DNA of 27,145 nucleotides from a candidate division KSB1 bacterium (GTDB lineage Bacteria > Zhuqueibacterota > JdFR-76 > DREG01). Under the pieces are notes generated by a model. That model was not told where the DNA came from and did not search any database. It saw only the letters and a program-made list of their open reading frames with translations. Shown in pieces: positions 5,359-26,686 of the stretch; position 1 is the first letter of the stretch; the number at the start of each line of letters is the position of its first letter. Made by a program: the position numbers and the translations under genes. Location: the NCBI GenBank assembly GCA_022566355.1, contig JADFJB010000057.1:1-27145 (forward strand), in the 5' to 3' direction.

Positions 5359-5808
5359 ATGAAATGTCCATATTGCGGCGTAAATTCCGATAAAGTCATT
5401 GACTCCCGGGAAATAACAAATGGATACATCATAAGACGAAGACGTAATTGTTTAAATTGTAAGAGAAAATTCACAACGAAAGAATTTGTTGTCGATTTAC
5501 CTATTGTTATCATTAAGCACGGGGGTATTCGAGAGGCTTTTGATCGGAAAAAATTACAAAAAGGAATTGTAAGAGCTTGCAATAAACGGCCAATTTCGGC
5601 AGAACAAATAGATCAAATTGTGGGTCAAATTGAAGGGGAGTTGCAAGATTTAAAAACTAGGGAAATTGAAGCTCATATAGTAGGCGATTGCGTAATGAAA
5701 CATCTACGAAAAATTGATGACGTTGCCTACATTCGATTCGCATCTGTTTATCATAAATTTGAAAGCAAAGAAGAATTTTTGGTAGAACTTAAACGACTGC
5801 AAAAGTAA
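5359..5808 (+). CDS. nrdR: Transcriptional repressor NrdR
   Basis: A 149-residue ATP/dATP-sensing repressor that binds NrdR boxes upstream of ribonucleotide reductase operons. The N-terminal zinc ribbon has Cys3, Cys6, Cys31 and Cys34 (CPYC and CLNC) around the basic IIRRRRN segment. It is followed by an ATP-cone domain (residues about 46-140), which starts near VIIKHGGIREAFDRKK and contains VAYIRFASVYHKF. Length and motif spacing are normal. The gene follows glyA by 15 bases with only a weak ribosome binding site, consistent with coupling. The glyA-nrdR pairing recurs in several phyla, though neither protein regulates the other as far as I know. No ribonucleotide reductase gene lies in this window. 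The opposite-strand foldase gene converges on it from the right. Confidence 0.96.
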   Translation: MKCPYCGVNSDKVIDSREITNGYIIRRRRNCLNCKRKFTTKEFVVDLPIVIIKHGGIREAFDRKKLQKGIVRACNKRPISAEQIDQIVGQIEGELQDLKTREIEAHIVGDCVMKHLRKIDDVAYIRFASVYHKFESKEEFLVELKRLQK

Positions 5809-6007
5809 CCAGGGCGATATCAGATCAATTTTAAAAGGAATGTTTTTGCAAAAGGGGTTGTAATTTCGTTAAATAAATTTAAGAAAAAGTTCAGGCAGAA
5901 ATAAGGCCATCCTAAATATCGATTAAATACATCACGAGCTCTCAACAGTAGATTGAATGGCCTAGCAATGAGAGATTAAAAATTGGATTGTTAACAACCT
6001 ATTTCTT

Positions 6008-7816
6008 TTAAGATCTGTTTGGCCGTGAATCTTTTATTTCAGCTTGTTCTTTTAGATGAGCATACCAATATGTAAATGATTGTTGCCGTTTTTGATTCAA
6101 TAATTGTTGATAAAGTAAAGCTTTTTGTGTCTCGAATCCTGCTTCATCTATGGCTAGCTTATTGACTAGCTTAATCAGGTAATATCCTCGAATCCCCTCA
6201 ACCGGTTCTGAAATTTCATTATCATTCAAAGAGAAAGTCGTTCCGATGAATTCGGGGTCCCTACCAACTGAAGGAATGGTTTCATCCCTCGTAAAGTTAG
6301 TAGTGGTTTTGATTTCCAGGGAATCTTCGGCCGCAATTCGTTCGAAATCATCCGAGACAGTCATTCTTGATCTAATTTTTGCTGCTTTTTGGTGAGCCAT
6401 TTCTTTACGCATATCAGCTCGTAGAATATTACGAATACTAATTTGAACGTCATCGATTGGTTTAATTCTTTTTTCTTGAATTTCACTAACAGAGGCAACA
6501 ATAAACCCTTGATCGGTTTCAAATGGCTCCTCACGGACCGCTCCTATTTCAGAATTAAACACAAATTGACTGATGTCGTTCGAAAAGCCGATGCCGGGTA
6601 TAAAGCCGCCGGCATTAAAAAAAGCAGAACTAATGATGGTTAATGTGGAGTCATTGGCGATTAATTCGTCTAACTCATCATCTTCTAATGCAATTGCATC
6701 CATTGCGAATAACATTGCTTTGGTTTGCAAATCTCTTTGAGTTTGACTCCCAGGTTCAAATTTCAAAAGAATATGACTGGCACGTACTTTTTCTTCACCA
6801 TCTTCAGTTTTTTTCTCTTCTACTTTTAACAGGTGGAGCCCAAACTGGGTTTCAATCGGACCGACGACTTCTCCTACGTTTGCACCAAATGCTGCGTCTT
6901 CAAACGGTTTCACCATGGCGTTTTTCCCAAAAAATCCAAGGCTACCACCTGATCCTTGTGCAGTAGGATCTTCAGAAAAGGTTTCCGCGAGGGAGGCAAA
7001 ATCCTCGCCATTGTTTATCCTAACAAGCAGATCCTGTGCTTCATTCAACACTGCTTGAGAATCATAAGCGGTTGGAATTAAAGGAAATAGAACATAATCT
7101 ATTCTTCGTTTTTCTACTTCCCTGTATTTCTCCTGATTTTCATTATAGTAGGTTTCTATATCATTTTCGTCAATTTGAATATCCTCTGAAATGTAGTCAT
7201 TAGGATTAAAGAAAATATATTTCACATTTGCTTTTTCATTTTTCTTTACATATTCCCATCTAATTTGTTCGGGAGTGATAATCGTAGCGGCAGAAATGAG
7301 ATTTTGTAATTTTTGGTAAGGAAGCGTTGATCTGATATATTGTTCAACAGGCAGCCAATCATTTCTGGGGTCTGAAAGGGCTTGACGATATTTTACCATA
7401 TCGAAATAACCATCTGTCTGGAAGGTTTCATTTGTCCTAATGAGGTCAGGTGGATTATCTTTAATTATGGATATTACCTCACTATCAGTCGCAGCTATTC
7501 CTCTGCGCTTAATTTCTCTTAGCATTAATATTTCCTGTATCATCACTTCCCAAACCTGGTTTTCTATCTGATCCATTTCCTGGTCGGTAATTTCTCCGTT
7601 TCCCTGGCTCCTTCTAAAATCAATAATGTTTTGAATACTTTGGTAATATTGGTCGGCCATAATTTTTTCACCATCAACTTCACCCAGCACGTTAGTTCGG
7701 GTTCTCAACCCCGTAATGTCCATGCCCCATTCGAACACGATTAAGCCGACAAAAGAGCCGGCAATGACCCACACAAATATTTTGGCAACGGATCCTCTTA
7801 ATTTTTGCATTACCAT
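6008..7816 (-). CDS. PpiD/SurA-like peptidyl-prolyl isomerase, membrane-anchored
   Basis: A 602-residue periplasmic foldase anchored in the inner membrane, built like PpiD. A short cytoplasmic tail and one transmembrane helix (residues about 11-30) precede a SurA_N-type chaperone domain (about 42-230). The first parvulin domain spans about 237-337 and carries FSEDPTAQGSGGSLGFFGK and GPIETQFGLHLLKVEEK. A second parvulin-like region begins at RASHILLKF (residues 345-353) but lacks the SEDP/GGxLG signature, so it is probably structural. Its expected role is folding of envelope and outer-membrane proteins. The start at 7816 has AAGGA eight bases upstream on the minus strand; the ATG at 7810 is possible but too far from it. 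The gene converges on nrdR, with no clear terminator in the 199-base gap. Confidence 0.9.
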   Translation of the reverse strand: MVMQKLRGSVAKIFVWVIAGSFVGLIVFEWGMDITGLRTRTNVLGEVDGEKIMADQYYQSIQNIIDFRRSQGNGEITDQEMDQIENQVWEVMIQEILMLREIKRRGIAATDSEVISIIKDNPPDLIRTNETFQTDGYFDMVKYRQALSDPRNDWLPVEQYIRSTLPYQKLQNLISAATIITPEQIRWEYVKKNEKANVKYIFFNPNDYISEDIQIDENDIETYYNENQEKYREVEKRRIDYVLFPLIPTAYDSQAVLNEAQDLLVRINNGEDFASLAETFSEDPTAQGSGGSLGFFGKNAMVKPFEDAAFGANVGEVVGPIETQFGLHLLKVEEKKTEDGEEKVRASHILLKFEPGSQTQRDLQTKAMLFAMDAIALEDDELDELIANDSTLTIISSAFFNAGGFIPGIGFSNDISQFVFNSEIGAVREEPFETDQGFIVASVSEIQEKRIKPIDDVQISIRNILRADMRKEMAHQKAAKIRSRMTVSDDFERIAAEDSLEIKTTTNFTRDETIPSVGRDPEFIGTTFSLNDNEISEPVEGIRGYYLIKLVNKLAIDEAGFETQKALLYQQLLNQKRQQSFTYWYAHLKEQAEIKDSRPNRS

Positions 7817-9499: not shown

Positions 9500-11494
9500 A
9501 TGGACAAATTTTTACTGAAGACACATTTTACTCCCAAAGGTGATCAAGAAAAAGCTATTCAAGAATTATCAGAAGGTTTCCAGCGAGGAGATAAATTTCA
9601 AACATTGTTAGGAGTTACCGGATCGGGAAAGACCTTCACGATGGCCAACGTAATTGCGAACCTTGGCCGGCCAACATTAATCATTTCTCACAATAAAACC
9701 TTGGCCGCACAATTATATGGCGAGTTCAAGACCTTTTTTCCTAATAATGCGGTTGGTTTTTTTATAAGCTATTTTGATTATTATCAACCCGAAGCTTATA
9801 TGGTGACTACTGATACTTATATCGAAAAGGATTCATCAGTTAATGATGACATTGATCGATTACGATTGAAAGCCACAAGCGCTTTATTGGAACGGGAAGA
9901 TGTGATTATCGTAGCTTCGGTTTCCTGTATTTATGGATTGGGTTCGCCGGATGAGTACAAAAACCTGATGCTGTATTTGGAACGCGGACAAAACATTGAA
10001 AGAGATGCAATCCTCAGAAAATTGGTGGATATTCATTATACCAGGAATGATTTTGATTTTCACCGTGGAACATTTCGCGTAAGGGGAGACGTAATTGAAA
10101 TTTTTCCAGCTTATGATGAAATACCAATTCGCATTGAATTATTTGGCGATGAAGTGGATTCGATTTACAATGTGAATCAATTGACCGGAGAGATAATAAG
10201 TGATATGCCGCGGCTCGCACTCTATCCTGCAAAACATTATGTTACCAGCCAACCTCGGATGGAGAAAGCAATTGAATCGATTCGTCTTGAATTGCAAGAA
10301 AGATTGACAGAGTTGCGCACTCAGAATAAATTACTCGAAGCGCAGAGATTAGAAATGCGAACGAATTATGACATCGAAATGATGGAAGAGTTAGGGTATT
10401 GTTCGGGAATCGAAAACTATTCGAGACATTTAACAGATCGCCAAGCGGGTGAGCGGCCATTTACTCTCTTCAATTTTTTTCCAAAGGACCTCTTAACCAT
10501 CATAGATGAATCCCATGCAACAGTTCCGCAAATTGGTGCAATGTATAGTGGTGATCGCTCCAGAAAAGAGGTACTGGTTGAACATGGTTTCAGACTACCT
10601 TCCGCGTTAGATAATCGGCCTCTGACGTTTGAGGAATTTGAATCCGTGGTTGATAAAGTTCTTTTTGTCTCTGCCACACCTGCAGAATTTGAATTGGAAA
10701 AATCCAAAGGAGTTGTGGTAGAACAAATCATTCGGCCTACCGGATTAATTGATCCTGAAATTGAAATCAGACCAACCAAAGGCCAAATTGATGATTTGAT
10801 TGTTGAGACAAAAGAAAGAGCAGAAAACAAAGAACGAACATTGATAACCACTTTGACGAAAAGAATGGCCGAAGACTTAACCGATTATTTGGCAGATTCT
10901 GGGGTGCGTGTACGATATCTTCATTCTGAAATCAATGCTCTTGATCGGGTCCAGATATTGCGTGATTTAAGATTGGCTGAATTTGATGTACTTGTCGGAA
11001 TAAATCTGTTACGAGAAGGACTTGATCTTCCGGAAGTTGCCCTTGTAGCCATTCTTGATGCAGATAAAGAAGGATTTTTAAGATCAGAAAGATCTCTTCT
11101 GCAGACTGCCGGCAGAGCTGCACGCAATGTTAATGGCAAGGTAATTTTTTATGCCGATGTGATAACCGATTCAATGAAAAAAGTAATCGATGAGACTAAT
11201 CGCCGCCGTGCCATTCAACATCAAAATAATGTCGATAATAATTTGACGCCTACAACGATTTACAAATCCATCGATGATGTTATGGAAACAACACGAGTCG
11301 CTGATGCAAAAACCGTGAAATGGAAGAAAGCTTCATCCATCAGGTTACCTCGTGAGAATATGGCTATTGAAGAAACTTTGGAATTTTTAGAAAAAGAAAT
11401 GCATACGGCTGCTGTTAAACTTGAATTTGAATTAGCGGCTGAAATCCGGGATGAGATTGAAAAACATAAAAGTAAATATACCAGCCGAAAATAG
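9500..11494 (+). CDS. uvrB: Excinuclease ABC subunit B
   Basis: The damage-verifying helicase-like subunit of nucleotide excision repair, which receives DNA from UvrA and recruits UvrC. The 664-residue chain is full length. Visible motifs are Walker A GVTGSGKT (38-45), the strand-separating beta-hairpin start DYYQPEAY (93-100), the DESH box at 336-339, helicase motifs near [16 protein letters not shown] and [17 protein letters not shown], motif [11 protein letters not shown], and a C-terminal UVR coiled-coil (about 625-660, [20 protein letters not shown]) that binds UvrC. The ribosome binding site is weak. The gene has its own candidate promoter. The 69-base gap to the next gene has no terminator, so readthrough into the lipid A block is possible. 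Confidence 0.98.
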
Positions 11495-11563
11495 GAAGTA
11501 TTACACTTTCAAAATTGTCTGCTTTCTGAGTCTGAGATCCACAATATTTAGCAAGGAGGATTT

Positions 11564-12574
11564 TTGAATAGGGTGAAAATTGGTGTTATTGGAGTTGGTA
11601 AACTTGGAATTTTCCATTTACAAAACCTTATGCAGATTCTTAATGCGGAAATTATCGGAGTTCATGATATCGATTTCAACCATGGAACCAAAATGGCATC
11701 GGAATATGATATCGAGTATTTTAAGAATTGTACGGACCTATTAGAACGGGTTGATGCCGTAACGATTGCTGTGCCTACCATAAGTCATTTTGAAGTTGGA
11801 CTATTGGCTATGCAGCATGGCAAGGCTGCCTTTATTGAAAAGCCAATTGCGGCGACTATCCGGGAAGCCAAACAAATGGTCGAATATTCTTCTAAGAATT
11901 TAATCCCATTACAGATTGGTCACATCGAAAGATTCAATCCTGCCTTTCGTTGTTTGGTCCTGGAGGAAACCAATCCTATGTTCATAGAAGCCCATAGGCT
12001 GGCTTCTTTTGATCTCCGTGGGTCTGATGTAGCTGTTGTATTGGATTTAATGATTCATGATATTGATTTGGTATTGACAATCGTCAATAGCCCGATTAAG
12101 CGAATAGATGCCAATGGTGTGTCTGTTATTTCAGATTCTGAAGATATTGCCAATGCACGAATCCAATTCGAAAATGGCTGTGTCGCTAACTTAACGGCTA
12201 GTCGAATCTCATTAAAAAAGATGCGGAAAATGCGCCTTTTTCAACAAAATTCGTACATTTCAATGGATTTTCTGATTGGCCTTACGGAAGTGTACGCATT
12301 AAAAGAACTTCCTCAGAATATGGCAGCTACCACACCAATCCCCTGGGGTGTAATCGAAAAAGATGGATATCGTAAACAAATCACTTATGAAAAAAAGAAG
12401 GATGAAGAAAAAAATGCTTTAAAAGCAGAATTAATTGCTTTTGTAGATGCCATCCAAAAAGGGAATAAACCTATTGTCACCGGAGAAGATGGACTACGAG
12501 CGTTAGAAATTGCTGATCAAATACTACAACAAATCAAAATCAATAATCATAAAAATTCTTATCCGGTACTATAG
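11564..12574 (+). CDS. Gfo/Idh/MocA-family oxidoreductase
   Basis: A 336-residue NAD(P)-dependent sugar oxidoreductase. The Rossmann loop GVIGVGKLG is at residues 7-15, the family EKP motif has Lys93 (IEKPIA), and the active-site strand at 161-166 gives Asp161 and His165 (DLMIHD). It lies eight bases before lpxB, in a lipid A block. In some bacteria an oxidoreductase of this family (GnnA) oxidises UDP-GlcNAc at C3 so that GnnB can make a 3-amino sugar for lipid A with amide-linked chains. That role is possible here, but no GnnB-like aminotransferase is present in the window, so it remains inference. The start is TTG 11564, four bases after AAGGAGGA; GTG 11573 is an alternative three codons in. 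Confidence 0.85.
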   Translation: MNRVKIGVIGVGKLGIFHLQNLMQILNAEIIGVHDIDFNHGTKMASEYDIEYFKNCTDLLERVDAVTIAVPTISHFEVGLLAMQHGKAAFIEKPIAATIREAKQMVEYSSKNLIPLQIGHIERFNPAFRCLVLEETNPMFIEAHRLASFDLRGSDVAVVLDLMIHDIDLVLTIVNSPIKRIDANGVSVISDSEDIANARIQFENGCVANLTASRISLKKMRKMRLFQQNSYISMDFLIGLTEVYALKELPQNMAATTPIPWGVIEKDGYRKQITYEKKKDEEKNALKAELIAFVDAIQKGNKPIVTGEDGLRALEIADQILQQIKINNHKNSYPVL

Positions 12575-12582
12575 GAATTAGA

Positions 12583-13716
12583 ATGGATACGGTTTTAATC
12601 ATTGCCGGGGAAAAATCCGGAGATCACCATGGCTCTGCTCTTGTGAGGGAGCTTTTGAAGATAGATTCTGCCTTAAATGTTTTTGGCATTGGTGGACCCT
12701 CTATGCGTGATGCGGGTGTAGATACTGTATATGACATTTCACAAATGGGCATCATCGGGATTTGGGAAGTTGTCAAACATTTACCATTTATTCACAAAGC
12801 AATCAATCATTTGAAGGAGTTGATAGAAACAAAGAATCCCCAATTGGTCATTTTGATTGATTATCCTGGATTCAATTTGAAAATTGCTCAATATGCACAC
12901 TCAAGAGGAATTAAAGTTTTGTATTATATTAGCCCACAGGTTTGGGCCTGGGGTTCAGGGCGAATCAAAAAAATTGCGAAATGTGTGGACCACATGGCCG
13001 TAATTTTTGATTTTGAGCAATCATTATTTTCAAAACACGGAATTCAATCAACATTCGTTGGCCATCCACTTTTGGAAAGTGTGGAAGTCAAGTTAGGTAG
13101 AGAAGAGTTTCTATCGAAATATAATCTTCCCAGTGATAACCCAATTTTGGGATTGTTTCCAGGCAGCCGTGAGCAGGAGATTCAGCGAAATCTACCTGAA
13201 ATGGTCAAAACGGCACATCTCTTTGTACAAAGCAATCCCAATTTTAAGATTGGATTAAGTTTAGCAGATAATTTGCCTATTGAAATTTACGCAAAGCACT
13301 TGGAAGGCACTTCCATTACGAATGTTTTAGACAACCAGGCATTGATGAGATATTCCGCTCTGTCTATTGTTGCTTCCGGTACCTCAACGCTGGAATCCGT
13401 AATTCTAAATACTCCATTTGTTGTTGTGTATCGAGTCTCACCAATTACATATTGGATTATAAAAAAAATATTCATAAGAATTGAAAACATCTCGTTGGTA
13501 AATATTGTTGCCGGCAAATTGGTTGTACCTGAGTTTATTCAATATGACTTCAAGGCCGAAAAAATAGCTCCTGTCCTGAATGATATTATGAAAGATGAAA
13601 AAGTACGTAACGAGATGTGCGCAGGATTTGAATTAGTTCGCCAAAAATTAGGTACCGCAGGAGCTTCTGCCCGCGTGGCAAAATTGGCTGCCTCAATACT
13701 AAGTGAGGGTTCGTGA
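12583..13716 (+). CDS. lpxB: Lipid-A-disaccharide synthase
   Basis: A membrane-associated GT19 glycosyltransferase that joins UDP-2,3-diacylglucosamine to lipid X, forming the lipid A disaccharide 1-phosphate. Its 377 residues match the family. Motifs are AGEKSGD (8-14), DYPGFN (93-98), ISPQVWAWG (116-124), GHPLLE (160-165) and LFPGSREQEI (191-200). Ser/Thr-rich nucleotide-binding residues follow around 263-275 (SIVASGTSTLE). The start is ATG 12583, with AGGA upstream. Its stop overlaps the GTG of the next gene (GTGA at 13713-13716), so translation is probably coupled. lpxA, lpxC and lpxD are not in the window. Confidence 0.97.
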   Translation: MDTVLIIAGEKSGDHHGSALVRELLKIDSALNVFGIGGPSMRDAGVDTVYDISQMGIIGIWEVVKHLPFIHKAINHLKELIETKNPQLVILIDYPGFNLKIAQYAHSRGIKVLYYISPQVWAWGSGRIKKIAKCVDHMAVIFDFEQSLFSKHGIQSTFVGHPLLESVEVKLGREEFLSKYNLPSDNPILGLFPGSREQEIQRNLPEMVKTAHLFVQSNPNFKIGLSLADNLPIEIYAKHLEGTSITNVLDNQALMRYSALSIVASGTSTLESVILNTPFVVVYRVSPITYWIIKKIFIRIENISLVNIVAGKLVVPEFIQYDFKAEKIAPVLNDIMKDEKVRNEMCAGFELVRQKLGTAGASARVAKLAASILSEGS

Positions 13717-14387
13717 GTTCTCTATCCGGTTTACCACTCAGGAAAAAGATTGAGTTTAATATTGCTGTTACTTTTGGGTGGGTAATTATATTTCTTCTTG
13801 GAAAAACCGTGAAGTTAAAATGCGATGGTCTACATCATTTGCTTGAACTTGAAAACCAGGGCTTACCTTATTTGATTTCAGCATGGCACGGCCGCTTATT
13901 AATGCCTTTATTTCGCTTTCGCCATAAAAAACTGATTGTTCTTGTCAGCCAGCATCTGGATGGGGAGATGATTGCGAGAAGCTTACATCGGTTGGGTTAT
14001 CGTACAATCAGGGGAAGTAGCACCCGTGGTGGTTCCAAAGCTGTTCAAGAAATGGTGAAAACGATGAAAAATGGCAATAGTGCGGTTATCATACCAGATG
14101 GACCGACAGGCCCCCGGCATCAATTAAAAATGGGAGTTGTGTACATGGCAATGGTAGCCGGTGTGCCAATCATTCCAATGACTTTTTCAGCAAATTCGGC
14201 TTACGTTTTAAATAGTTGGGATCGCTTTTTGGTGCCTAAACCGTTTTCTTCTGTTTTGATAAAAATCGGTTCACCCATTGAAATACCGAAAAAATGTTCG
14301 AACCGTGAATTGGTTGTTTGGACACGAAAAGTCCAGCAGAAAATGGTAGACCAGGAGTTAGCTGCCGATGCCTTTTTCGCCGCCTAA
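13713..14387 (+). CDS. DUF374 family protein (lysophospholipid acyltransferase-like)
   Basis: A 224-residue protein of the DUF374 group within the LPLAT superfamily. An N-terminal hydrophobic helix (residues about 17-31) is followed by ISAWHGRLLMPLF with His59, VSQHLDGE (79-85), GSSTRGG (101-107) and PDGPTGPR (128-135). These line up with the acyltransferase blocks of PlsC-like enzymes, although the canonical HX4D is altered. DUF374 genes commonly lie next to lpxB, waaA or lpxK, and the exact acyl acceptor is not established as far as I know. The start is GTG, overlapping the lpxB stop, and the 3' end overlaps lpxK by 20 bases, so all three are probably one translational unit. Confidence is high for the family and low for the reaction. 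Confidence 0.88.
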   Translation: MSSLSGLPLRKKIEFNIAVTFGWVIIFLLGKTVKLKCDGLHHLLELENQGLPYLISAWHGRLLMPLFRFRHKKLIVLVSQHLDGEMIARSLHRLGYRTIRGSSTRGGSKAVQEMVKTMKNGNSAVIIPDGPTGPRHQLKMGVVYMAMVAGVPIIPMTFSANSAYVLNSWDRFLVPKPFSSVLIKIGSPIEIPKKCSNRELVVWTRKVQQKMVDQELAADAFFAA

Positions 14388-15429
14388 ACCGGTCTCTATC
14401 TTAACCTGGCCCTTTTCAAAAATATATGGAGCTGGAATCGAGCTGCGAAACCGTGGATTCAATTCAGGATTACTGCCAATTCAAAAACTTCCCAGACCGG
14501 TTATAAGTGTCGGTAATTTAACAGTAGGGGGGACAGGTAAAACCCCTGTTGTGGCTTATTTAGCAAAATTTCTAAAACAACATGGCTTGAAAGTGGCAGT
14601 ACTTACCAGGGGATACAAAAGGGAAACTTCAAAGACAGTTATTTTAAAACAGGGTGATCTTGCTCAAATTCCTTTTCATGAAACAGGTGATGAAGCGAGA
14701 GTACTAGTACATCATGTGGGTAATGGGGGAGTTGTTATTGATCGCAATCGATTTCGCGGCGGAACCGTTGCCATAAACAATTTCAATCCTGATGTGTTTA
14801 TTTTAGATGATGGTTTCCAACATCGGCGATTATTCAGAGAACTGGATATCGTTACGTTGGATGCAAAACTTCCATTTGGAAATAGACAACTGCTTCCATC
14901 CGGCCCTTTACGGGAATCTATAAAAAATATAAAGAGAGCGGATTTATTATGGATTACCCGGGTAAACCAATCAAGCTTTTCTGTAGAAGAAATAAAAAGT
15001 CAAATAAGTTATTCTGTCGATAAGCCTGCAGTCTTTTCAAACCATGAGCCTATTAAAGTAATTGATGTTGCCAGTGAATCAAAACTACCCATCGAATTTC
15101 TTAAAAATCGAAACGTAATTGCTTTTGCTGGAATTGCAAATCCCAATTCATTTCTTGAAACGTTGAAAAAATTGGGTGCAATCGTTGTTAGATTTCACAA
15201 CTTTACAGATCACTTCATGTACACCAAAAAAGAAATTGAATTACTGGCAAATACGCTAAGCGGCTGTAATGCTGAAATTCTTATTACCACAGAGAAAGAT
15301 GCAGTGCGTTTCTCGCGTGAGATTCTGCAAAATATTCCAAATCTTCATGTGTTGCAAGTGGGTATTCAACTCCTTAACGAAAAAGAAGAATTGAAAAAAA
15401 TATTGAAAAATATTGTATTATTACAGTAA
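14368..15429 (+). CDS. lpxK: Tetraacyldisaccharide 4'-kinase
   Basis: An inner-membrane kinase that phosphorylates the 4' position of the lipid A disaccharide to give lipid IVA. The 353-residue chain has a P-loop in GNLTVGGTGKTP (49-60), AVLTRGY (77-83), GDEARVL (107-113), the conserved DDGFQH (147-152) and a C-terminal ITTEKDAVRF strand near residues 310-319. The N-terminal amphipathic/hydrophobic segment (about 9-25) fits membrane attachment. The start ATG lies 20 bases inside the DUF374 gene. In many Gram-negative genomes a Kdo transferase gene lies near lpxK; none is present here. No terminator follows. The 243-base gap to the regulator gene carries only a weak AAGCTG/CAGCTT inverted repeat (15495-15523). 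Confidence 0.95.
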   Translation: MPFSPPKPVSILTWPFSKIYGAGIELRNRGFNSGLLPIQKLPRPVISVGNLTVGGTGKTPVVAYLAKFLKQHGLKVAVLTRGYKRETSKTVILKQGDLAQIPFHETGDEARVLVHHVGNGGVVIDRNRFRGGTVAINNFNPDVFILDDGFQHRRLFRELDIVTLDAKLPFGNRQLLPSGPLRESIKNIKRADLLWITRVNQSSFSVEEIKSQISYSVDKPAVFSNHEPIKVIDVASESKLPIEFLKNRNVIAFAGIANPNSFLETLKKLGAIVVRFHNFTDHFMYTKKEIELLANTLSGCNAEILITTEKDAVRFSREILQNIPNLHVLQVGIQLLNEKEELKKILKNIVLLQ

Positions 15430-17157: not shown

Positions 17158-18068
17158 TGTTGCAGCTAGTAATCGGTTTGTTAGTTTATCATAATATGAT
17201 GCTGCCTGGTTTTTCTAATGAAAAATGGCAGATTGTTCGAAATGATTCAGTTCGGATTTACTATTCCGATGGTTATGAAAATATGGCAAAAAAGTTGTTA
17301 ATTAAAAGCACTGAAATTTTGTCAGAATTTAGCCAGGTGCTTGGAATACCTTATGAAGGTGAAGTATTTGTGTTTCTGGTCTCGAATGAAGAAACCTGGA
17401 ATGAGCTTACGAAAGATACAATTCCTAAGTGGAGTGGTGGAGTAACGAAATCCCAAAAGGGAATTACGTATCTTCGAATCTATAGAAACCCACAACAAAT
17501 ACTTCCGATTTTAAGACATGAATTAATGCATTTGATCTTAGGTAAAAATTTTAGGCCCAACATTATCCCAAGGTGGTTCGAAGAAGGATTAGCCACTTTG
17601 TGTTCTAATCAAGATAACTCTGGATTTAGTTTGGTTTTATCCATGGCGAATCTTTCCAACTCCCTTATTCCATTGGCCGAAATCGAGGATGTTTTGAATT
17701 TCAAAAAAGCGAAGGCTGATTTAGCTTATGCCCAAAGTTATGTTGGCGTAAAATTAATTGTTGATTCTATTGGATGGGAGGCAATTCGGAAAATATTGGG
17801 GAATGGACTACAATCAAAACAATGGGATGAAGCGTTCTATTCAGTCCTGGAAATGGATGAGGAAGCATACGAATTGTATTTTTTGGAGTTCATTGAAACC
17901 CATTATCGGTGGAACTTTTTGTATCAATCGGATTATGTTATATGGATTCTGATCCCAATTTCCGTTGTTTTCATTTACTTAATCATCAGGCTGAGAAATT
18001 TTAGAACTTATAAGAAATGGTCAGCCGAAGAAGAGCTAACAAAAAATAATTTAGAATTTGATGAATAA
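17157..18068 (+). CDS. Peptidase MA-like zinc metallopeptidase, membrane-anchored
   Basis: A 303-residue protein with a gluzincin-type active site: HELMH at 121-125 gives two zinc ligands and the catalytic Glu122, and WFEEGLA (140-146) supplies the third ligand, as in the peptidase MA family. The N-terminus (residues 1-18) is a short hydrophobic segment without an early basic residue, a marginal signal sequence. A transmembrane helix at about 260-279 is followed by a basic tail, so the catalytic domain probably faces the periplasm. The substrate is unknown. ATG 17157 is the only usable upstream start, because TGA at 17136 closes the frame; no ribosome binding site adjoins it. The gene overlaps the following acyltransferase gene by eight bases (ATGAATAA). 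Confidence 0.8.
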   Translation: MLQLVIGLLVYHNMMLPGFSNEKWQIVRNDSVRIYYSDGYENMAKKLLIKSTEILSEFSQVLGIPYEGEVFVFLVSNEETWNELTKDTIPKWSGGVTKSQKGITYLRIYRNPQQILPILRHELMHLILGKNFRPNIIPRWFEEGLATLCSNQDNSGFSLVLSMANLSNSLIPLAEIEDVLNFKKAKADLAYAQSYVGVKLIVDSIGWEAIRKILGNGLQSKQWDEAFYSVLEMDEEAYELYFLEFIETHYRWNFLYQSDYVIWILIPISVVFIYLIIRLRNFRTYKKWSAEEELTKNNLEFDE

Positions 18069-18963
18069 ACATAGCCTTAAGCATCACATTGAATATTTTA
18101 TACTCCGTACAATCTGTGGATGGATAAAATCAAAACCTTTACCAGATGCAATAAACAAATATAAAATTTTAGGAAAGATTTGGTCAGAATATTTAAAAAT
18201 TAGAAAAAAAGAAACTCTGGATAATTTGCGACATGCATTTCTGGAACTAAGTGAGAAAGAGATTGAGAAATTAGGGGAAGCGGTTTTTTACCATTTTAGC
18301 CGTTTGGCTGTTGAGGTGGTTTTGTTATCAAATATGATTAAATATGGCTTTGACAATTTTATAGGCGAGAGCAATTGGGAAGTTCTGGAGAATGCCCACG
18401 CGGAAGGAAGAGGCGTTGTTTTTGTTTCAGGACACATAGGTAACTGGGAATTATTGGGAACAGCTATGACGATACGAGGTCTTCCTATCTGGACTTTGGT
18501 CGCAAATATCAAAAATCCGCTCGTTGATCAATTCGTTTATCGACATCGCGTCGATTCAGGAATGAAAATCATTAGAATTAAAGAATCACGACGAATGATA
18601 CAAAAGGGAATAAAGCAGGGGGCAATTATAAGCTTTGTTTCCGATCAAGATGCTGGTAAGAATGGCATTTTCGTACCATTTTTAGGTAAGCCTGCCTCTA
18701 CTCATACCGGGGCTGCGGTGTATGCACTTCGATATAAAGTCCCGTTAGTTTATGGCATGTCATATTTCAAAGATAAAAAGTATCATTTTCACTTTGAACG
18801 ATTCGATGGAAATTCTCAATTAAAATTTTCCCGGGAGAATATTTACAAAATTACTGAATGGTATTCCAAAACGCTGGAGAACGATGTGCGAAAATATCCA
18901 GAACAGTATTTCTGGCTGCACAGAAGATGGAAAACCAGGCCAGAATCGGAGAGCTCCTCATGA
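18061..18963 (+). CDS. Lipid A acyltransferase of the LpxL/HtrB family
   Basis: A 300-residue inner-membrane late acyltransferase that transfers a fatty acyl chain to a lipid A precursor. The signature SGHIGNWELLG contains the HX4E catalytic pair His125 and Glu130. Downstream blocks VSDQDAGKNGIFVPFLGKP and GAAVYALRYKVPLVYG are also typical, as is the C-terminal YFWLHRRWKTRP, a hallmark of the family. Which position it acylates, and whether Kdo is needed first, cannot be read. The start is ATG 18061, overlapping the peptidase stop; the TTG one codon earlier is unnecessary. The stop overlaps the next start (ATGA at 18960-18963). Its place at the head of a glycosyltransferase run links lipid A completion with core assembly. 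Confidence 0.93.
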   Translation: MNKHSLKHHIEYFILRTICGWIKSKPLPDAINKYKILGKIWSEYLKIRKKETLDNLRHAFLELSEKEIEKLGEAVFYHFSRLAVEVVLLSNMIKYGFDNFIGESNWEVLENAHAEGRGVVFVSGHIGNWELLGTAMTIRGLPIWTLVANIKNPLVDQFVYRHRVDSGMKIIRIKESRRMIQKGIKQGAIISFVSDQDAGKNGIFVPFLGKPASTHTGAAVYALRYKVPLVYGMSYFKDKKYHFHFERFDGNSQLKFSRENIYKITEWYSKTLENDVRKYPEQYFWLHRRWKTRPESESSS

Positions 18964-20024
18964 AATATCTGTTCCTGAATTCTGCAAGAAGGTGGGGAGG
19001 GAATGAGCGCTGGACCGCATTAGCTGCCCAGGGACTTGCGGTGCGCAATGAAGTATTTTTTGCTTACCGGAAAATGGAAATTGGTTCCAGATTTGATGTG
19101 CCAAAATATCGATTGCCTTTTTGGAATGAGCTGGATATGCTATCAATCTCCAGGCTAATTTTCCTGATTAAGAAACATCATATAGATATCTTAATCCCAA
19201 CCAAACGCAAAGATTATGTTCTGGCTGGTTTTGCAGCCAAAGCCATGGGAAAAAAGAATGTTCTACGTTTAGGAATAGAACGATCAATAAAAAACACTTG
19301 GACAAACCGTTTGGTATATAACTCCCTTTGTGACGGTATCATCGTCAATGCGGAGGTAATAAAAAACAGACTCGTACAAAGTGGATTTATCCCGCCGGAA
19401 AAAATTCGCATCATCTATAATGGTATCGATTTTCCGGCTCTTCAAGAAAAAGCCAAGCTTAAGAATGGCTTCATAAAACCCTACGATTTCACTATAGCTG
19501 CCATGGGTGAGCTATCCCGGCGAAAGAGAATGGATCTGCTTTTAAGAGCTTTTTCGGTCCTGAAAAAAAAGGATAAATCTAGTATTCCATGGGGAGCGCT
19601 GATTGTCGGTTCTGGTCGGGAAAAAGAAAAATTATCAAAATTAGCACTGGATTTGGAAATCAGCGACCAGGTTATCTTTACTGGCTTTTTGGATAATCCA
19701 TATCCGTTAATCGATAAATGCGATGTTTTTGTTCATACTTCAAAGACTGAGGGGATACCTAATTCGATGCTTGAGGCGATGGCCTTAAAGAAGCCGATCA
19801 TAACAACTGGATTTGGCGCAGCACAGGAGGTTGTCCGTAACGGTTCCAACGGCTATTTGTTGAAGCAGGGGAACGCTGAAGAATTAGCGGATCGCTTGAT
19901 AAAATTGATTAACGATCAAAATACAAGACGGTCCATTGCAAAGGAAGGGTATCATTCTGTGAAACGAATGTTTTCTATGGAAAGGATGGTTGGAGAAATC
20001 GAAGATTTTTGCAGCCAGATCTAG
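18960..20024 (+). CDS. GT4 family glycosyltransferase
   Basis: A 354-residue GT-B fold retaining glycosyltransferase. The N-terminal half opens with KYLFLNSARRWGGNERW, which contains the acceptor-side glycine loop. The C-terminal half has IIYNGID, the MGELSRRKRMDLLLRAF nucleotide-binding strand, and the EX7E pair Glu264 and Glu272 in TEGIPNSMLEAM. It probably adds a sugar to the LPS core or to a related surface glycan, using an NDP- or UDP-sugar that cannot be named from sequence. The start ATG 18960 overlaps the acyltransferase stop and has GGAG about nine bases upstream. An in-frame start about 100 bases earlier would lie inside the previous gene and lacks homology. A gap of 459 bases follows. 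Confidence 0.9.
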   Translation: MKYLFLNSARRWGGNERWTALAAQGLAVRNEVFFAYRKMEIGSRFDVPKYRLPFWNELDMLSISRLIFLIKKHHIDILIPTKRKDYVLAGFAAKAMGKKNVLRLGIERSIKNTWTNRLVYNSLCDGIIVNAEVIKNRLVQSGFIPPEKIRIIYNGIDFPALQEKAKLKNGFIKPYDFTIAAMGELSRRKRMDLLLRAFSVLKKKDKSSIPWGALIVGSGREKEKLSKLALDLEISDQVIFTGFLDNPYPLIDKCDVFVHTSKTEGIPNSMLEAMALKKPIITTGFGAAQEVVRNGSNGYLLKQGNAEELADRLIKLINDQNTRRSIAKEGYHSVKRMFSMERMVGEIEDFCSQI

Positions 20025-20483: not shown

Positions 20484-21431
20484 ATGAAAATCAGCGGCTT
20501 CTCCTTTGTCAGAAATGGGATTAAACTATACTATCCAGTCGTGGAATCGGTGAAATCGATCCTATCGATTGTGGATGAATTCGTCATTGCTATTGGTAAG
20601 GGTGATGAGGATGATAAGAGCCGTGAAAAGATAGCCGCAATTGGCGATCCCAAGATTAAAATAATCGATACGATCTGGGAGGAGAAATATTTTAAAAAAG
20701 GAGTAATCAACGCGATTCAAACCAATATTGCCAAACAGGCTTGTACTGGCGATTGGCTTTTTTATTTGCAGGCAGATGAAATCGTTCATGAAAAATATTT
20801 ACCTATAATTCAAAAAAGATGTGAAGAATTGGTGGGTAACGAAATGATCGAAGGATTACTTTTTCGATATAAGCATTTCTGGGGTGATTATGAGCATTAT
20901 CATGTCGGTCATGGTTGGTATCCTAATGAAATAAGAATTATTCGTAATCGACCTGATATCAATTCATGGCAAAGCGCCCAATCTTTTCGGAAATTCGATT
21001 ACATCGATAATCCCCGCCAGGAAAACGGGCACCATAAACTGAAAGTGGCGAAAGTAGATGCTGAAATCTATCACTACGGATGGGTACGACTTCCACATTT
21101 GATGCAAAATAAGCGTAGAGCACTTGATTCGGTTCATTGGGGACTTAAACGAGCCCAAGAATATTATGAAACGGCAGCGAAAGAATTTGACTATGGTCCC
21201 TTGAACTTGCTTGCCTCTTTTAAGGGTACCCACCCGAAGGTAATGGAACAAATGATAGCTAAAATGAGCTGGAAGGATAAACTGCAGTATTCGGGAAAAC
21301 CAGATCAATTTAGAGAACCGCATAAGCATGAAAGATTAAAGTATAGATTTTTATCCTTCATTCAAAAATATTTGACTGGAGGAAAGGAAATTGGGGGATT
21401 TAATAACTTTATCCTGGTGAAAGACATGTAA
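20484..21431 (+). CDS. GT2-like glycosyltransferase
   Basis: A 315-residue protein with a GT-A nucleotide-diphospho-sugar transferase N-terminus: ISGFSFVRNGIKLYYPVVES at residues 3-22, a VDEFVIAIGKGDEDDK strand-loop, and LQADE with Asp98 and Glu99 as the likely metal-binding DXD equivalent. The middle (HFWGDYEHYHVGHGWYPNEI) and the later YHYGWVR are seen in Bacteroidota relatives that I recognise only as 'family 2 glycosyltransferase'. Substrate and acceptor are unknown. There is no clear ribosome binding site before ATG 20484, and long non-coding stretches flank the gene on both sides, so it may be its own transcription unit within the glycan cluster. Its family is fairly certain; its biological role is not. 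Confidence 0.8.
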   Translation: MKISGFSFVRNGIKLYYPVVESVKSILSIVDEFVIAIGKGDEDDKSREKIAAIGDPKIKIIDTIWEEKYFKKGVINAIQTNIAKQACTGDWLFYLQADEIVHEKYLPIIQKRCEELVGNEMIEGLLFRYKHFWGDYEHYHVGHGWYPNEIRIIRNRPDINSWQSAQSFRKFDYIDNPRQENGHHKLKVAKVDAEIYHYGWVRLPHLMQNKRRALDSVHWGLKRAQEYYETAAKEFDYGPLNLLASFKGTHPKVMEQMIAKMSWKDKLQYSGKPDQFREPHKHERLKYRFLSFIQKYLTGGKEIGGFNNFILVKDM

Positions 21432-21583: not shown

Positions 21584-22351
21584 TTGAATTCAACCGAAAA
21601 CATAACCATTTCAAATCCTTTATCCGTAGTTATTATTACAAAAAATGAAGAAAAGAATATCGAACGGTGCTTAAAATCAGTTCTCTGGTCAAATGAGATT
21701 GTTGTTGTGGATAATGGATCAACAGATGGAACAGCCGAAATCTGTCGTAAGTATAATTGCAGAATTATTGAATCAGAATGGCTTGGATTTGGACCGTTGA
21801 AACAATTAGCTGTTAATTCGGCGGTTCATGATTGGATATTTTCGATAGATTCCGATGAAGAAGTGAGTGAAACATTAAAAAACAGAATACAGAATATATT
21901 AAAAAGACCTCAATTAAATGGCTATCGAATTAAGATTGAATCGTTTTATTTAGGCAAACAAATTCGCTATTGTGGATGGGATCGGGATTATAAATTGAGA
22001 TTTTTTAATCGCAACTATGGTAATTTTAACGATAATCTCGTCCATGAATCCGTGAGGATGCCTGGCCAAGTGGGAAGAATAGAAGAGCCACTGTTTCATT
22101 ATACCTATCCCACGATTCACTCTCATATTGCGAAGATGGATCGTTATACAGAATTACGAGTAGATCAATTAGTGAGTAAAAGTGAATCGTCGTCGGTGAT
22201 CATAGCAGCATTAAGAGGGATCGCTAAATTTTTTAAAATGTATCTTCTGCAGCGGGGTTTTTTAGACGGAAAGATTGGCTTTGTTCTTTGTACTATTTCA
22301 GCCTTTGGCATTTATTTAAAATATCTGAAACTATGGGAAAAGAATCGATAA
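21584..22351 (+). CDS. GT2 glycosyltransferase, WaaE/KdtX-like
   Basis: A 255-residue inverting glycosyltransferase of family 2. LSVVIITKNEEKNIERCLKS and VVVDNGSTDGT form the nucleotide-binding N-terminus, and IDSDEE (88-93; Asp89, Asp91) is the metal-binding motif. The later CGWDRDYKLRFFNR and LVHESV are characteristic of the WaaE group, which adds beta-glucose to a heptose of the LPS inner core. The C-terminus has a hydrophobic segment (about 232-250). The start is TTG 21584, the only plausible start because TAA at 21569-21571 closes the frame; it lacks a visible ribosome binding site. The 3' end overlaps the next gene by 19 bases. Together with the heptosyltransferase downstream, a core-sugar role is likely but not proven. 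Confidence 0.87.
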   Translation: MNSTENITISNPLSVVIITKNEEKNIERCLKSVLWSNEIVVVDNGSTDGTAEICRKYNCRIIESEWLGFGPLKQLAVNSAVHDWIFSIDSDEEVSETLKNRIQNILKRPQLNGYRIKIESFYLGKQIRYCGWDRDYKLRFFNRNYGNFNDNLVHESVRMPGQVGRIEEPLFHYTYPTIHSHIAKMDRYTELRVDQLVSKSESSSVIIAALRGIAKFFKMYLLQRGFLDGKIGFVLCTISAFGIYLKYLKLWEKNR

Positions 22352-23436
22352 GGGTTTTACATATTGACACAGAAAAAACATGGCGAGGCGGGCAGCAACA
22401 AGCAGCATATCTACTCCAAGCCATGAATGAACAGGATTATTATACAACTCTGGTATGTCAACCGAAATCACCCATGGAAAGTTTTTGCCGCGATAAAGCA
22501 ATTCCTTACATGCCCTTAAGGATGTTCGGTGAAATTGATCTGATCGCCGGGTTTCGGATTGCCAGAATTTGTATCAAAGATAATTATAATATATTACACT
22601 TACATAGCGGACATGCGTTATCGATTGGTTTGTGGGCAAAATTATTTTTTTCAAAGTTAAAACTGATTGCGGTGCGTCGAGTTGATTTTCATATTAAAAA
22701 GAACTGGTTCAGTCAATTCAAATATAAAAATCAATTTTTAGACAAAATTGTCTGCATTTCCCATGGAATCGAAAAAATTCTTCTGGAAGATGGTGTTCCT
22801 GCCCAGAAGTTGGTGACTATTCACAGCGGGATTGATATTCATCGATTTAAAAAAGTACTTCCCTCAAAACATTTTCGACAGAAATTTGGAGTGCCTGAAA
22901 ATAATATATTGGTCGGTACTATTGCTGCACTAGCAAAGCACAAAGATTATCCAAATCTATTGAAGGCTGCTAAAATCGTTATCGAGAAAAGCAGTGGTAT
23001 CACTTTTTTTGCAGTGGGTGATGGTCATGAGAAAGAGAATATCTTGGCATTGGCATATAAATTGGGTTTAAAGGATAGATTTGTTTTTACTGGTTTTCGA
23101 GAAGATATTGGAAACTTTTTGAAAACCTTCGATATTTTCGTGTTGGCTTCAAAGAAAGAAGGTATGGGAACTTCGCTTTTAGATGCACAGAGTGTTGGTT
23201 TGCCGGTAATCGCCTGTGAAACAGGAGGAATACCCGAAATCATTGTTCATGGTAAAAACGGTATACTTGTGCCTCCTGAAAATGAACAAAAACTTGCTAA
23301 CGCGATACTTTTGCTGGCAAATAATTATAAACTACGTGAGTCGTTGGGACAGAATGCAATAGAAACAGTTACAAAATTTAAGATTCATAAAACCGTGATC
23401 AAAAATATAAAATTATATAAGGAGCTATTGGCATAA
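22333..23436 (+). CDS. GT4 family glycosyltransferase
   Basis: A 367-residue GT-B glycosyltransferase. Visible motifs are the N-terminal TWRGGQQQAAYLL, the HLHSGHA segment, VTIHSGID, VGTIAALAKHKDYPNLLKA, and the catalytic-region SKKEGMGTSLLDA. There Glu276 is conserved, but the second acidic residue of the EX7E pair is Asp284. The C-terminal GGIPEIIVHGKNGILVPP completes the donor site. It probably extends the LPS core or a related glycan. The start is ATG 22333, 19 bases inside the preceding gene. A TTG 45 bases earlier is possible, but it would add residues encoded by the overlap and without family similarity. The heptosyltransferase gene follows after 12 bases. Confidence 0.9.
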   Translation: MGKESIRVLHIDTEKTWRGGQQQAAYLLQAMNEQDYYTTLVCQPKSPMESFCRDKAIPYMPLRMFGEIDLIAGFRIARICIKDNYNILHLHSGHALSIGLWAKLFFSKLKLIAVRRVDFHIKKNWFSQFKYKNQFLDKIVCISHGIEKILLEDGVPAQKLVTIHSGIDIHRFKKVLPSKHFRQKFGVPENNILVGTIAALAKHKDYPNLLKAAKIVIEKSSGITFFAVGDGHEKENILALAYKLGLKDRFVFTGFREDIGNFLKTFDIFVLASKKEGMGTSLLDAQSVGLPVIACETGGIPEIIVHGKNGILVPPENEQKLANAILLLANNYKLRESLGQNAIETVTKFKIHKTVIKNIKLYKELLA

Positions 23437-23448
23437 GCTGAGGATGAG

Positions 23449-24501
23449 GTGAATTATAATAAAATACTGGTCATTCAAACTGCTTTTTTAGGCGATGTAA
23501 TAATGAGTACGCCGCTGATAAAAGCGCTGAGAGAAATATTTCCAAAATCTGAAATTGACATCCTTACAATTCCTGCGACCAGTATTGTTTTTAAAGAAAA
23601 TCCAAACGTCACCAACATCCTTCATTATGACAAAAGAAAGCCCTTTCGAAAGTTCGTTTCTTTTATTGATTTAATTTTTAAACTAAGAAAAAGAAAATAT
23701 GATTTAGCTGTATCAATCCAAAGTTCTTTATCTTCTTCATTCTTGATGCAATTGGGAAAGATCCCGACTCGGGTCGGTTTTGCCCGTCAAAAATTTGTCA
23801 CGATACCTGTGACACCTGAAAGTGGACTTCATATTCGAGAACGGTACATCAATTTGTTGAAGCCATTTTCCGATAATAATTTTGACCTGCAAACAGAAAT
23901 ATTCTGGTCACAGGGTGAAGAACAAAAAGCTCAACAAATTGTACAAGAATATCGAGATGACAAATATCTTCTTGGCATTGCACCTGGATCAGTCTGGAAT
24001 ACCAAACGCTGGCCCAAAGAATATTTTGCCGTACTTTTAGGGCTTCTTGAAAAAAACAACATTAAAGTTATCTTAATCGGTGGGCAAGAGGATCGTCTTT
24101 TATGTGACCAGATTCTTGAAAAATCCGGTGCAAAAGCATTAAATTTAGCAGGCAATCTTTCTGTGCTTGAATCTGCAGCAGTTATTCAAAAGTTAGACTT
24201 AATGGTCACCAATGACAGCGCGTCTTTGCATATAGCAAATGCTGTTAAAACTGATGTAAATGCTTTTTTTGGTCCTACGGTTCACAGGTTTGGATGTTAT
24301 CCATATCAGCCCGATGATAAAATGCTTGAAATCGACTTATACTGTCGACCCTGCTCAAAACATGGAAGTAGACGGTGTCCTGAAAAACATTTTCGATGTA
24401 TGCGAGAAATAAAGCCAGAAACAGCTTTTGAGGCCATATTTTCTCATCAAAAAGGAATGGGTAATGAAAAGCAATACAATAATCATATTAACAGGGAATG
24501 A
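23449..24501 (+). CDS. GT9 heptosyltransferase, WaaF-like
   Basis: A 350-residue GT-B enzyme that transfers L-glycero-D-manno-heptose (or a related sugar) from its ADP form to the LPS inner core. The N-terminal KILVIQTAFLGDVIMSTPL includes the catalytic-position Asp16; the donor-binding LGIAPGSVWNTKRWP and VTNDSASLHIANAV follow. A cysteine-rich tail, CRPCSKHGSRRCP with CM downstream, is common in heptosyltransferase II relatives. The start is GTG 23449, preceded by GAGGA. The 3' end overlaps the ATP-grasp gene by 38 bases. A heptosyltransferase implies ADP-heptose synthesis genes elsewhere, since none are here. The assignment to the GT9 family is secure; the exact step is not. Confidence 0.92.
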   Translation: MNYNKILVIQTAFLGDVIMSTPLIKALREIFPKSEIDILTIPATSIVFKENPNVTNILHYDKRKPFRKFVSFIDLIFKLRKRKYDLAVSIQSSLSSSFLMQLGKIPTRVGFARQKFVTIPVTPESGLHIRERYINLLKPFSDNNFDLQTEIFWSQGEEQKAQQIVQEYRDDKYLLGIAPGSVWNTKRWPKEYFAVLLGLLEKNNIKVILIGGQEDRLLCDQILEKSGAKALNLAGNLSVLESAAVIQKLDLMVTNDSASLHIANAVKTDVNAFFGPTVHRFGCYPYQPDDKMLEIDLYCRPCSKHGSRRCPEKHFRCMREIKPETAFEAIFSHQKGMGNEKQYNNHINRE

Positions 24502-25519
24502 CAATTTTTTTGGTCAAACAAGAAAACCCTGGGTGAGTATGGATGCAGATAAAATGCAGAACATATTTTGTGAACATGGTTTTGATGTTGAAAAATATAG
24601 CTTTCATGAGATCCTGAACCAGAGGAAAAGAATTAAAGATTCGATCATTTTTTATACCTTCAGTCAGAAGATAAATAGAAGAGATTATATCAAAGACCTG
24701 GTTCATTATCTGGATGATGGCAGTAATATTTTAATCCCTTCTTATGATTTGCTGTTGTGTCATGAAAATAAGGGATTTCAGGAGCTTTATAAAAAAAGAA
24801 TAAATCTTACATCGCTAAATTCTTATTATTTCAGTAGTTTAAATGAGCTATCCTGTTATGCAATTAATTTTCCAATCGTATTTAAAACAGTGGATACTTC
24901 AAATGGGAGAGGCGTATTTTTAGTAAAAAGCACAAATGAATTGGTAAAATTAATTCAAAAACTGGAGAGACAAACTGTTTTTACAGGGCTGGATTTAGTG
25001 AGAAGGAAATATTTCCGCCGCAAAAAAAGTTACAAAGAATATCCGGACTATAGCAATCGGAAAGATTATTACCAATATAAAGATTATATATTAAAAGAAG
25101 AGAATTTTATTTTACAGGAATTTGTCCCAGATCTCCCATTTTTTTATCGCGTATTGACTCTTTATGATAAATATTATGTAATGAGACGATTTAACAGAAA
25201 AAGTGATTTTCGGGCAAGTAAAACTAAGAAGGAGTATGATATTGAATTTGATTATCGCTTGTTGGACTATGCAAAAGAAGTTTATAATAGATTTGATACA
25301 CCTTTTCTTTCACTTGATATTGGGTTGCATCAAAACAAGTATTATTTGTTTGAATTTCAAGCGTTACATTTCGGCATTGGACCGTTCGTAAGATCAGTCG
25401 GATACTACACTTATGATAATCATAATTGGAGATTTAATCCCAATAAAAGAAGACCCGATATAGAGATAGAAATCGCCAATGCATTTGTTAAATATGTTAA
25501 TGCGCGTTATATTTCCTGA
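24464..25519 (+). CDS. ATP-grasp fold protein of unknown substrate
   Basis: A 351-residue cytoplasmic protein with ATP-grasp features. Residues about 1-110 look like a pre-ATP-grasp domain, and residues 137-153 contain Lys141 (IVFKTVDTS) and a glycine loop NGRGVFLV. The chain continues with LQEFVPDLPFFYRVLTLYDK and ends with the metal-site segments LSLDIG (Asp285) and LFEFQALHFG (Glu297, Gln299). Enzymes of this fold join a carboxylate, activated as acyl phosphate, to an amine or thiol. The usual Glu-x-Asn is Glu-x-Gln here. A tyrosine- and lysine-rich insert occupies about 175-215. The start is ATG 24464, seven bases after AAAGGA at 24451-24456, within the heptosyltransferase gene. Being flanked by sugar and phosphoglycerol transferases suggests decoration of a surface glycan. 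I do not recognise the specific family. Confidence 0.65.
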   Translation: MKSNTIIILTGNDNFFGQTRKPWVSMDADKMQNIFCEHGFDVEKYSFHEILNQRKRIKDSIIFYTFSQKINRRDYIKDLVHYLDDGSNILIPSYDLLLCHENKGFQELYKKRINLTSLNSYYFSSLNELSCYAINFPIVFKTVDTSNGRGVFLVKSTNELVKLIQKLERQTVFTGLDLVRRKYFRRKKSYKEYPDYSNRKDYYQYKDYILKEENFILQEFVPDLPFFYRVLTLYDKYYVMRRFNRKSDFRASKTKKEYDIEFDYRLLDYAKEVYNRFDTPFLSLDIGLHQNKYYLFEFQALHFGIGPFVRSVGYYTYDNHNWRFNPNKRRPDIEIEIANAFVKYVNARYIS

Positions 25520-25633
25520 CTCAAAACTGTTACTAAAAAATAAGCTGGAATTCTTGTTCTCTAATTTTGACAGATAGGATTTGTTTTTGCAACCGAATAG
25601 AAAAAGATCCAAATTTCAATAGATGGTTCAAGC

Positions 25634-26686
25634 GTGATTTTCTCCTATTACCTTTACAAATATCCATATAAATTAATCTGGTATTTTTTTAAACTATTAA
25701 ATAGAAATCCCGCGTTAGTTGTTTATTGTGCTGATCCGCTTGATTACATTGTGTTAAAACCTGTTTTGAAATATTTTCCTCAAGTCGAAATTGCTGTAAA
25801 AAATCGGGTAACAGCCAGATATCTTCTAAAACAAAAGCTAAATATTAAACGGATGCCGTGCTTTCCCAAAGCCGTTATCTTATGTCGTCATGCAACGCAC
25901 AAATTTCCTGAAGAAAAGATCATCAAGATCGGATTCCGTCATGGCGCATTTCATTTTAAAGAATTTGCTAATGCCAGATATTACAACGCATTCGACCTGT
26001 ATTTCATGACCAGTGAGAAAGAAGTTGAAGAAGCAAAGACGAAAAGCATTAAAACAGCTCGTGCGATTGGATTTCCAAAATTGGATCTCCTGTTCAATGG
26101 CTCAATCAATGATGATAGATTAAAGATTACTTTCTGTAAGACCAAACTTGATCAAAACAAAAAAACAGTCATTTTTACTGCTACGTGGGATAAATCTGGT
26201 ATGTCCGCTATTCATTTGTGGGTTGATAGGATTCATGAATTTAGTGAAAATTATAACGTTCTGGTAACTGTACATCCCTGGACGTCAAAAAAATATGTGG
26301 AGAGGTTAAAGAAAATTGCAGGCATATTTTTAATCCAGGACCCGGATGTCTTGCCATATTTAATGATCGCTGATGTATTGATAGGGGATACCAGCTCGAT
26401 CATTGCTGAATTTTGTGTATTGGATAAGCCAATTATAACCCTCAAGGTTGCCGAAACAGACAGAACTGTTCCTGAAATAGTTCGATTATTGAAGGACATT
26501 AGTTATCAAATCGAAAATGTCGATCAATTAAAAGATGTCATTGAATATAATCTGAACAATCCAGAGGAGAGAAGTAAACAAAGACAAAAAGCTAATCGAA
26601 TGATGTTTGATCAATTGGATGGACAGGCGGGAAAGAGAGCAGCGGATATTATTAAAAAAGAATTTCCTGATTTATTTCATTTTTGA
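25634..26686 (+). CDS. TagF-like CDP-glycerol glycerophosphotransferase family protein
   Basis: A 350-residue GT-B-like transferase. The GDTSSIIAEFCVLDKPIITL segment (residues 251-270) matches the signature of the CDP-glycerol:polyglycerol phosphate glycerophosphotransferase family, which is typified by TagF of teichoic-acid synthesis. The two histidines expected to be catalytic are probably His103 (GFRHG) and His214 (VTVHPW). In Gram-negatives, members of this family transfer glycerol phosphate or other polyol phosphates to capsules, O-antigen or core. The start is GTG 25634, since TAG at 25598 closes the frame and no ATG lies between; there is no strong ribosome binding site. It lies 114 bases after the ATP-grasp gene and is the last intact gene of the cluster. 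The family is fairly certain, the donor is not. Confidence 0.82.
   Translation: MIFSYYLYKYPYKLIWYFFKLLNRNPALVVYCADPLDYIVLKPVLKYFPQVEIAVKNRVTARYLLKQKLNIKRMPCFPKAVILCRHATHKFPEEKIIKIGFRHGAFHFKEFANARYYNAFDLYFMTSEKEVEEAKTKSIKTARAIGFPKLDLLFNGSINDDRLKITFCKTKLDQNKKTVIFTATWDKSGMSAIHLWVDRIHEFSENYNVLVTVHPWTSKKYVERLKKIAGIFLIQDPDVLPYLMIADVLIGDTSSIIAEFCVLDKPIITLKVAETDRTVPEIVRLLKDISYQIENVDQLKDVIEYNLNNPEERSKQRQKANRMMFDQLDGQAGKRAADIIKKEFPDLFHF

Follow-up and report, generated by a model that had tools for sequence, protein, structure and literature searches.

A conserved pair of ATP-grasp ligase and TagF-family transferase genes in LPS-core clusters: a possible undescribed core modification pathway

A gene for an ATP-grasp ligase and a gene for a TagF-family GT-B transferase are adjacent in 13 genomes that span three phyla, with order and strand preserved, and the pair is recurrently embedded among genes of lipid A and LPS-core assembly. 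Both proteins have the fold of their families and carry putative catalytic motifs. The pair probably decorates the cell surface in an undescribed way, likely through an amide linkage. We give an even chance to its being a module for LPS-core modification, in which the ligase would form an amide on a residue set by the transferase. The fuller proposal, an undescribed and patchily spread core pathway in which the GT-B transferase adds a residue and the paired ATP-grasp enzyme amidates it, is advanced slightly more tentatively.

The window, i.e., the whole stretch of DNA analyzed in this study, is a contig of 27,145 bases from a host genome of 4.62 Mb that is 98.5% complete. It contains the following genes, all of which are on the forward strand:

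12583..13716, +, LpxB, lipid A disaccharide synthase
14368..15429, +, LpxK, lipid A 4'-kinase
18058..18963, +, LpxL-type lipid A acyltransferase (profile match)
18936..20024, +, GT4 glycosyltransferase (profile match)
20484..21431, +, weak GT2-type protein (69-74% identity to Melioribacteraceae and G079 cluster proteins)
21584..22351, +, GT2 glycosyltransferase, presumably WaaE-like (orthologue close to the pair in several genomes)
22288..23436, +, GT4 glycosyltransferase (orthologue close to the pair in several genomes)
23449..24501, +, GT9 heptosyltransferase II-like protein (TIGR02195; in 9 genomes an orthologue immediately precedes the ligase)
24464..25519, +, ATP-grasp ligase, 351 residues (RimK/ArgX/LysX-like fold in the predicted structure)
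25634..26686, +, TagF-family GT-B transferase, 350 residues, GTG start (PF04464)

The GT9 protein scores above the heptosyltransferase II cutoff of TIGR02195 (143.9 versus 134.6 bits). As the preliminary description had it, the ATP-grasp gene starts inside the GT9 gene, with its ATG at 24464 and an overlap of the final 38 bases of GT9, and the TagF-like gene comes next. An AAGGA is located 7 bases upstream of this ATG, and the GTG start of the TagF-like gene agrees with the N-termini of its relatives. No open reading frame of at least 80 residues is present between 26687 and 27145; the contig ends in this stretch, and the downstream genes are outside the view.

The 13 genomes with the pair comprise 8 of the window's phylum (KSB1-type), 3 Fermentibacterota, and 2 Melioribacteraceae; one of the 8 (G018) is counted although its contig ends within the transferase. 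The intergenic gap is -17 to +12 bases in most pairs, 114 bases in the window, and 319 bases in G079, and a computed gap of -181 bases in G249 is an artefact of over-extended ORF starts. A search of 82 genomes from the window's phylum found close forms of both genes in 8, one gene alone in 1 and the other alone in 1, and neither in 72. Both singletons (G071 and G067) are truncated by contig ends, and the co-occurrence gives a Fisher p of 2e-9, a value that ignores shared ancestry. Two Cloacimonadota genomes also have both genes, which are on separate contigs. Conservation in 13 genomes indicates that the arrangement is not due to chance and rules out a pair unique to the window; as for the proposed search for the heptosyltransferase, ATP-grasp, and TagF-like trio in related genomes, 9 of the 13 have the heptosyltransferase directly upstream. 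In the tree, the pair of the Fermentibacterota locus L011 clusters with the window's phylum with modest support, which suggests a transfer of this pair; the trees agree only partly. The pair is patchily distributed among several mostly uncultured Gram-negative phyla, perhaps by horizontal transfer.

More distant homologues of the ligase, from Capnocytophaga, Psychrobacter, G049, G143, G162, and G205, are situated in polysaccharide clusters, and no match to the transferase was found in these genomes at E 1e-10. In the Psychrobacter cluster (L018:6366-16026), three ligase homologues stand in tandem; one ATPgrasp_ST and one PylC-like ATP-grasp protein are also encoded there, together with Wzx/Wzy. 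At each of two other loci (L017:8968-11005 and L095:8504-10598), the distant homologue adjoins a CapA-like PGA_cap gene. A search of plasmids with the ligase gave zero matches. In the Melioribacteraceae core cluster L012, the ligase is present in two tandem copies (9992-12093), and a RimK-like ATP-grasp gene is located upstream (5386-6261).

The neighbors of the pair point to lipid A and core assembly. In addition to lpxB, lpxK, and the lpxL-type gene of the window, the orthologues of the heptosyltransferase found upstream of the ligase share 45-65% identity, an MsbA-type ABC exporter adjoins the cluster in L012 and L066, and the L089 cluster contains WaaA and KdsD; WaaA is present in 12 of the 13 genomes. 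The view that the two genes were appended to a run of LPS-core glycosyltransferases is supported, and the arrangement is conserved across genomes. The exception is the L011 pair, which has a membrane protein, a flippase, and a short GT9 as neighbors. This adjacency to a flippase rather than to core genes, together with the distant ligase homologues that occur among CapA-like, Wzx, or Wzy genes in polysaccharide clusters devoid of a TagF-like gene, would fit a pair that serves a separate surface polymer (an exopolysaccharide or a protein glycan) and merely neighbors the LPS cluster. We consider this unlikely, however, as the linkage to GT9, MsbA-type, LpxL, and WaaA genes is recurrent and the ligase gene overlaps the heptosyltransferase gene.

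The predicted structure of the ligase (AlphaFold, pLDDT 85.9) takes a full-length ATP-grasp fold, as anticipated. The closest solved structures are RimK (PDB 5zct; Z-score = 20.9, RMSD = 4.1, 270 residues aligned), ArgX (Z-score = 20.8), and LysX (Z-score = 20.1), followed by synapsin (18.4), inositol phosphate kinases (17.5), and D-Ala ligase (17.4). The window protein falls just below the cutoff of the RimK Pfam model PF08443 (20.4 versus 21 bits) and below that of TIGR00768 (20.1 versus 143.4 bits). Lys103, Lys141, Gln218, Arg242, Asp285, Glu297, and Gln299 are invariant across 13 members of the ligase family, including the distant ones; by analogy, Lys103, Lys141, Asp285, and Glu297 are the putative ATP lysines and acidic metal ligands. 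The ligase resembles RimK, ArgX, and LysX in overall fold and in most ATP-binding residues, whereas identity to them is only 12-16%, with differences in the substrate loop and at one metal residue. RimK-like ligases usually have a Mg-binding Asn where the ligase has Gln (EFQ), and the FRSN-type substrate motif of RimK corresponds to FRAS here; given these two replacements, the ligase may not act like RimK. The replaced Asn, along with the match to the ATP-grasp inositol phosphate kinases PPIP5K and ITPK (Z about 17), would fit a kinase, or some other enzyme that is not a ligase, with a core sugar or a precursor as its substrate. Such an activity is improbable in our judgment because RimK, ArgX, and LysX are clearly nearer (Z about 20-21) and PF08443 matches 12 of the 13 family members (best E 3.5e-11). 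Amide chemistry, as envisaged earlier, is plausible for the modeled fold.

RimK, ArgX, and LysX act on proteins or carrier proteins, whereas the ligase described here sits in an LPS-core cluster. A UDP-sugar dehydrogenase family is represented in all 13 genomes with the pair, and uronic acids are thus possible carboxylates. In Campylobacter jejuni, the C-terminal TupA-like ATP-grasp domain of Cj1438 makes an amide on capsule glucuronate (PMC11800379). Like the pair as proposed here, this system links a transferase to an ATP-grasp enzyme that decorates a Gram-negative surface glycan; the domain of Cj1438, however, shares its chain with a GT2 and belongs to a capsule cluster, while the ligase of the pair is RimK-like, stands alone, and lies beside a TagF-like enzyme among LPS-core genes.

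The TagF-like protein scores well above the PF04464 cutoff (66.5 versus 22.1 bits), which all 8 transferase family members match, and its top-scoring relatives of known structure are TarL, TagF, and Cps3D. His214 is equivalent to His584 of TagF in the profile alignment. A loop of the form RHG(A/P)(F/Y)xFK that contains His103 resembles the His444 loop of TagF by eye and in its spacing; this match rests on motif and spacing because the profile alignment failed to place His444. Catalytic roles of TagF-family histidines have been reported (PMC5974469, PMC10299916). In KSB1 bacterium 4572_119, which belongs to the window's phylum, an 11-residue in-frame stretch with the presumed catalytic His103 loop is missing from the TagF-like gene (L010:1535-2548), which represents either a true loss or an assembly error and counts against a core modification module. 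The model of the transferase has a pLDDT of 76.8 and resembles UDP-GlcNAc 2-epimerases, BshA, WaaA, and TagF with high RMSD; all of these folds score within Z 16-18, so that structure comparison cannot pick the donor.

The family relationship and the retained equivalent of His584, together with the phosphodiester polymers that Gram-negative TagF-like enzymes build (PMC5974469, PMC10299916), raise the prospect that glycerol- or ribitol-phosphate is transferred from a CDP-polyol to the core in a teichoic-acid-like modification. The genomes argue against this donor. No TagD (glycerol-3-phosphate cytidylyltransferase) scored over the cutoff in the 9 genomes with the pair that were searched, and G060 has not even a sub-cutoff match. 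The TagD-like matches that were checked all score far below the TagD cutoff and proved to be nucleotidyltransferases of the RfaE-II type or related to it; in two of them GmhB is part of the same protein, and this picture fits ADP-heptose synthesis. TarI was not found in the host genome, in which there is a single strong IspD. Three annotated TagF-like loci on plasmids have a cytidylyltransferase gene within the same cluster, whereas none was seen next to the pair. In addition, the position of the glycerol-pocket proline of TagF (Pro447; Gly99 in CroT) is occupied by Phe or Tyr in the transferase of the pair, according to a motif alignment made by eye. On these grounds, transfer of glycerol- or ribitol-phosphate is disfavored, and the glycerol or other polyol phosphate decoration of the preliminary description is not supported; we regard it as a poor prospect, although CDP-polyol could possibly be supplied by some other route. 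The Gram-negative enzymes Cps3D, Cps7D, and Bcs3 CroT from H. influenzae type b share the TagF-family GT-B domain and, as far as the motif comparison goes, catalytic His motifs with the transferase, but they are large multidomain polymerases that use CDP-glycerol or CDP-ribitol, while the transferase of the pair is a single-domain protein of 350 residues for which a CDP-polyol pathway was not found. A fused RfaE-II/GmhB-type protein, with two steps of ADP-heptose synthesis in one chain, is encoded in the host genome (L032:871-1950), and this fusion also occurs in G046 (L034).

For the preferred reading, a core modification module, we infer the substrates and the site of the reactions as follows. 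Both enzymes would act on the cytoplasmic side, before flipping of the lipid A-core. In the step after the heptosyltransferase, the TagF-like GT-B enzyme would extend the growing core by a residue; its nucleotide-activated donor is probably a sugar rather than TagD-made CDP-glycerol. The ATP-grasp enzyme, with the chemistry suggested by its fold and family, would convert a carboxylate, which could belong to the added residue, to Kdo, or to a uronic acid, into an acyl-phosphate and join it to an amine. The outcome would be a decoration held by an amide, and the two steps may come in either order.

In a search of open-access literature, we found no paper on the pair or on ATP-grasp enzymes in LPS-core clusters, and none that joins ATP-grasp with LPS, heptosyltransferase, and amide. 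One match that combined ATP-grasp with the LPS inner core was unrelated to the pair. To call the pathway undescribed is fair for the pair itself, but each component has precedent in Gram-negative surface polysaccharides. Very little is known of LPS-core chemistry in the uncultured phyla with the pair, and the strict pairing of the two genes within core clusters leads us to predict a specific modification there, probably amide-linked. If this is true, ATP-grasp amidation of surface glycans would extend from capsules to the LPS core.
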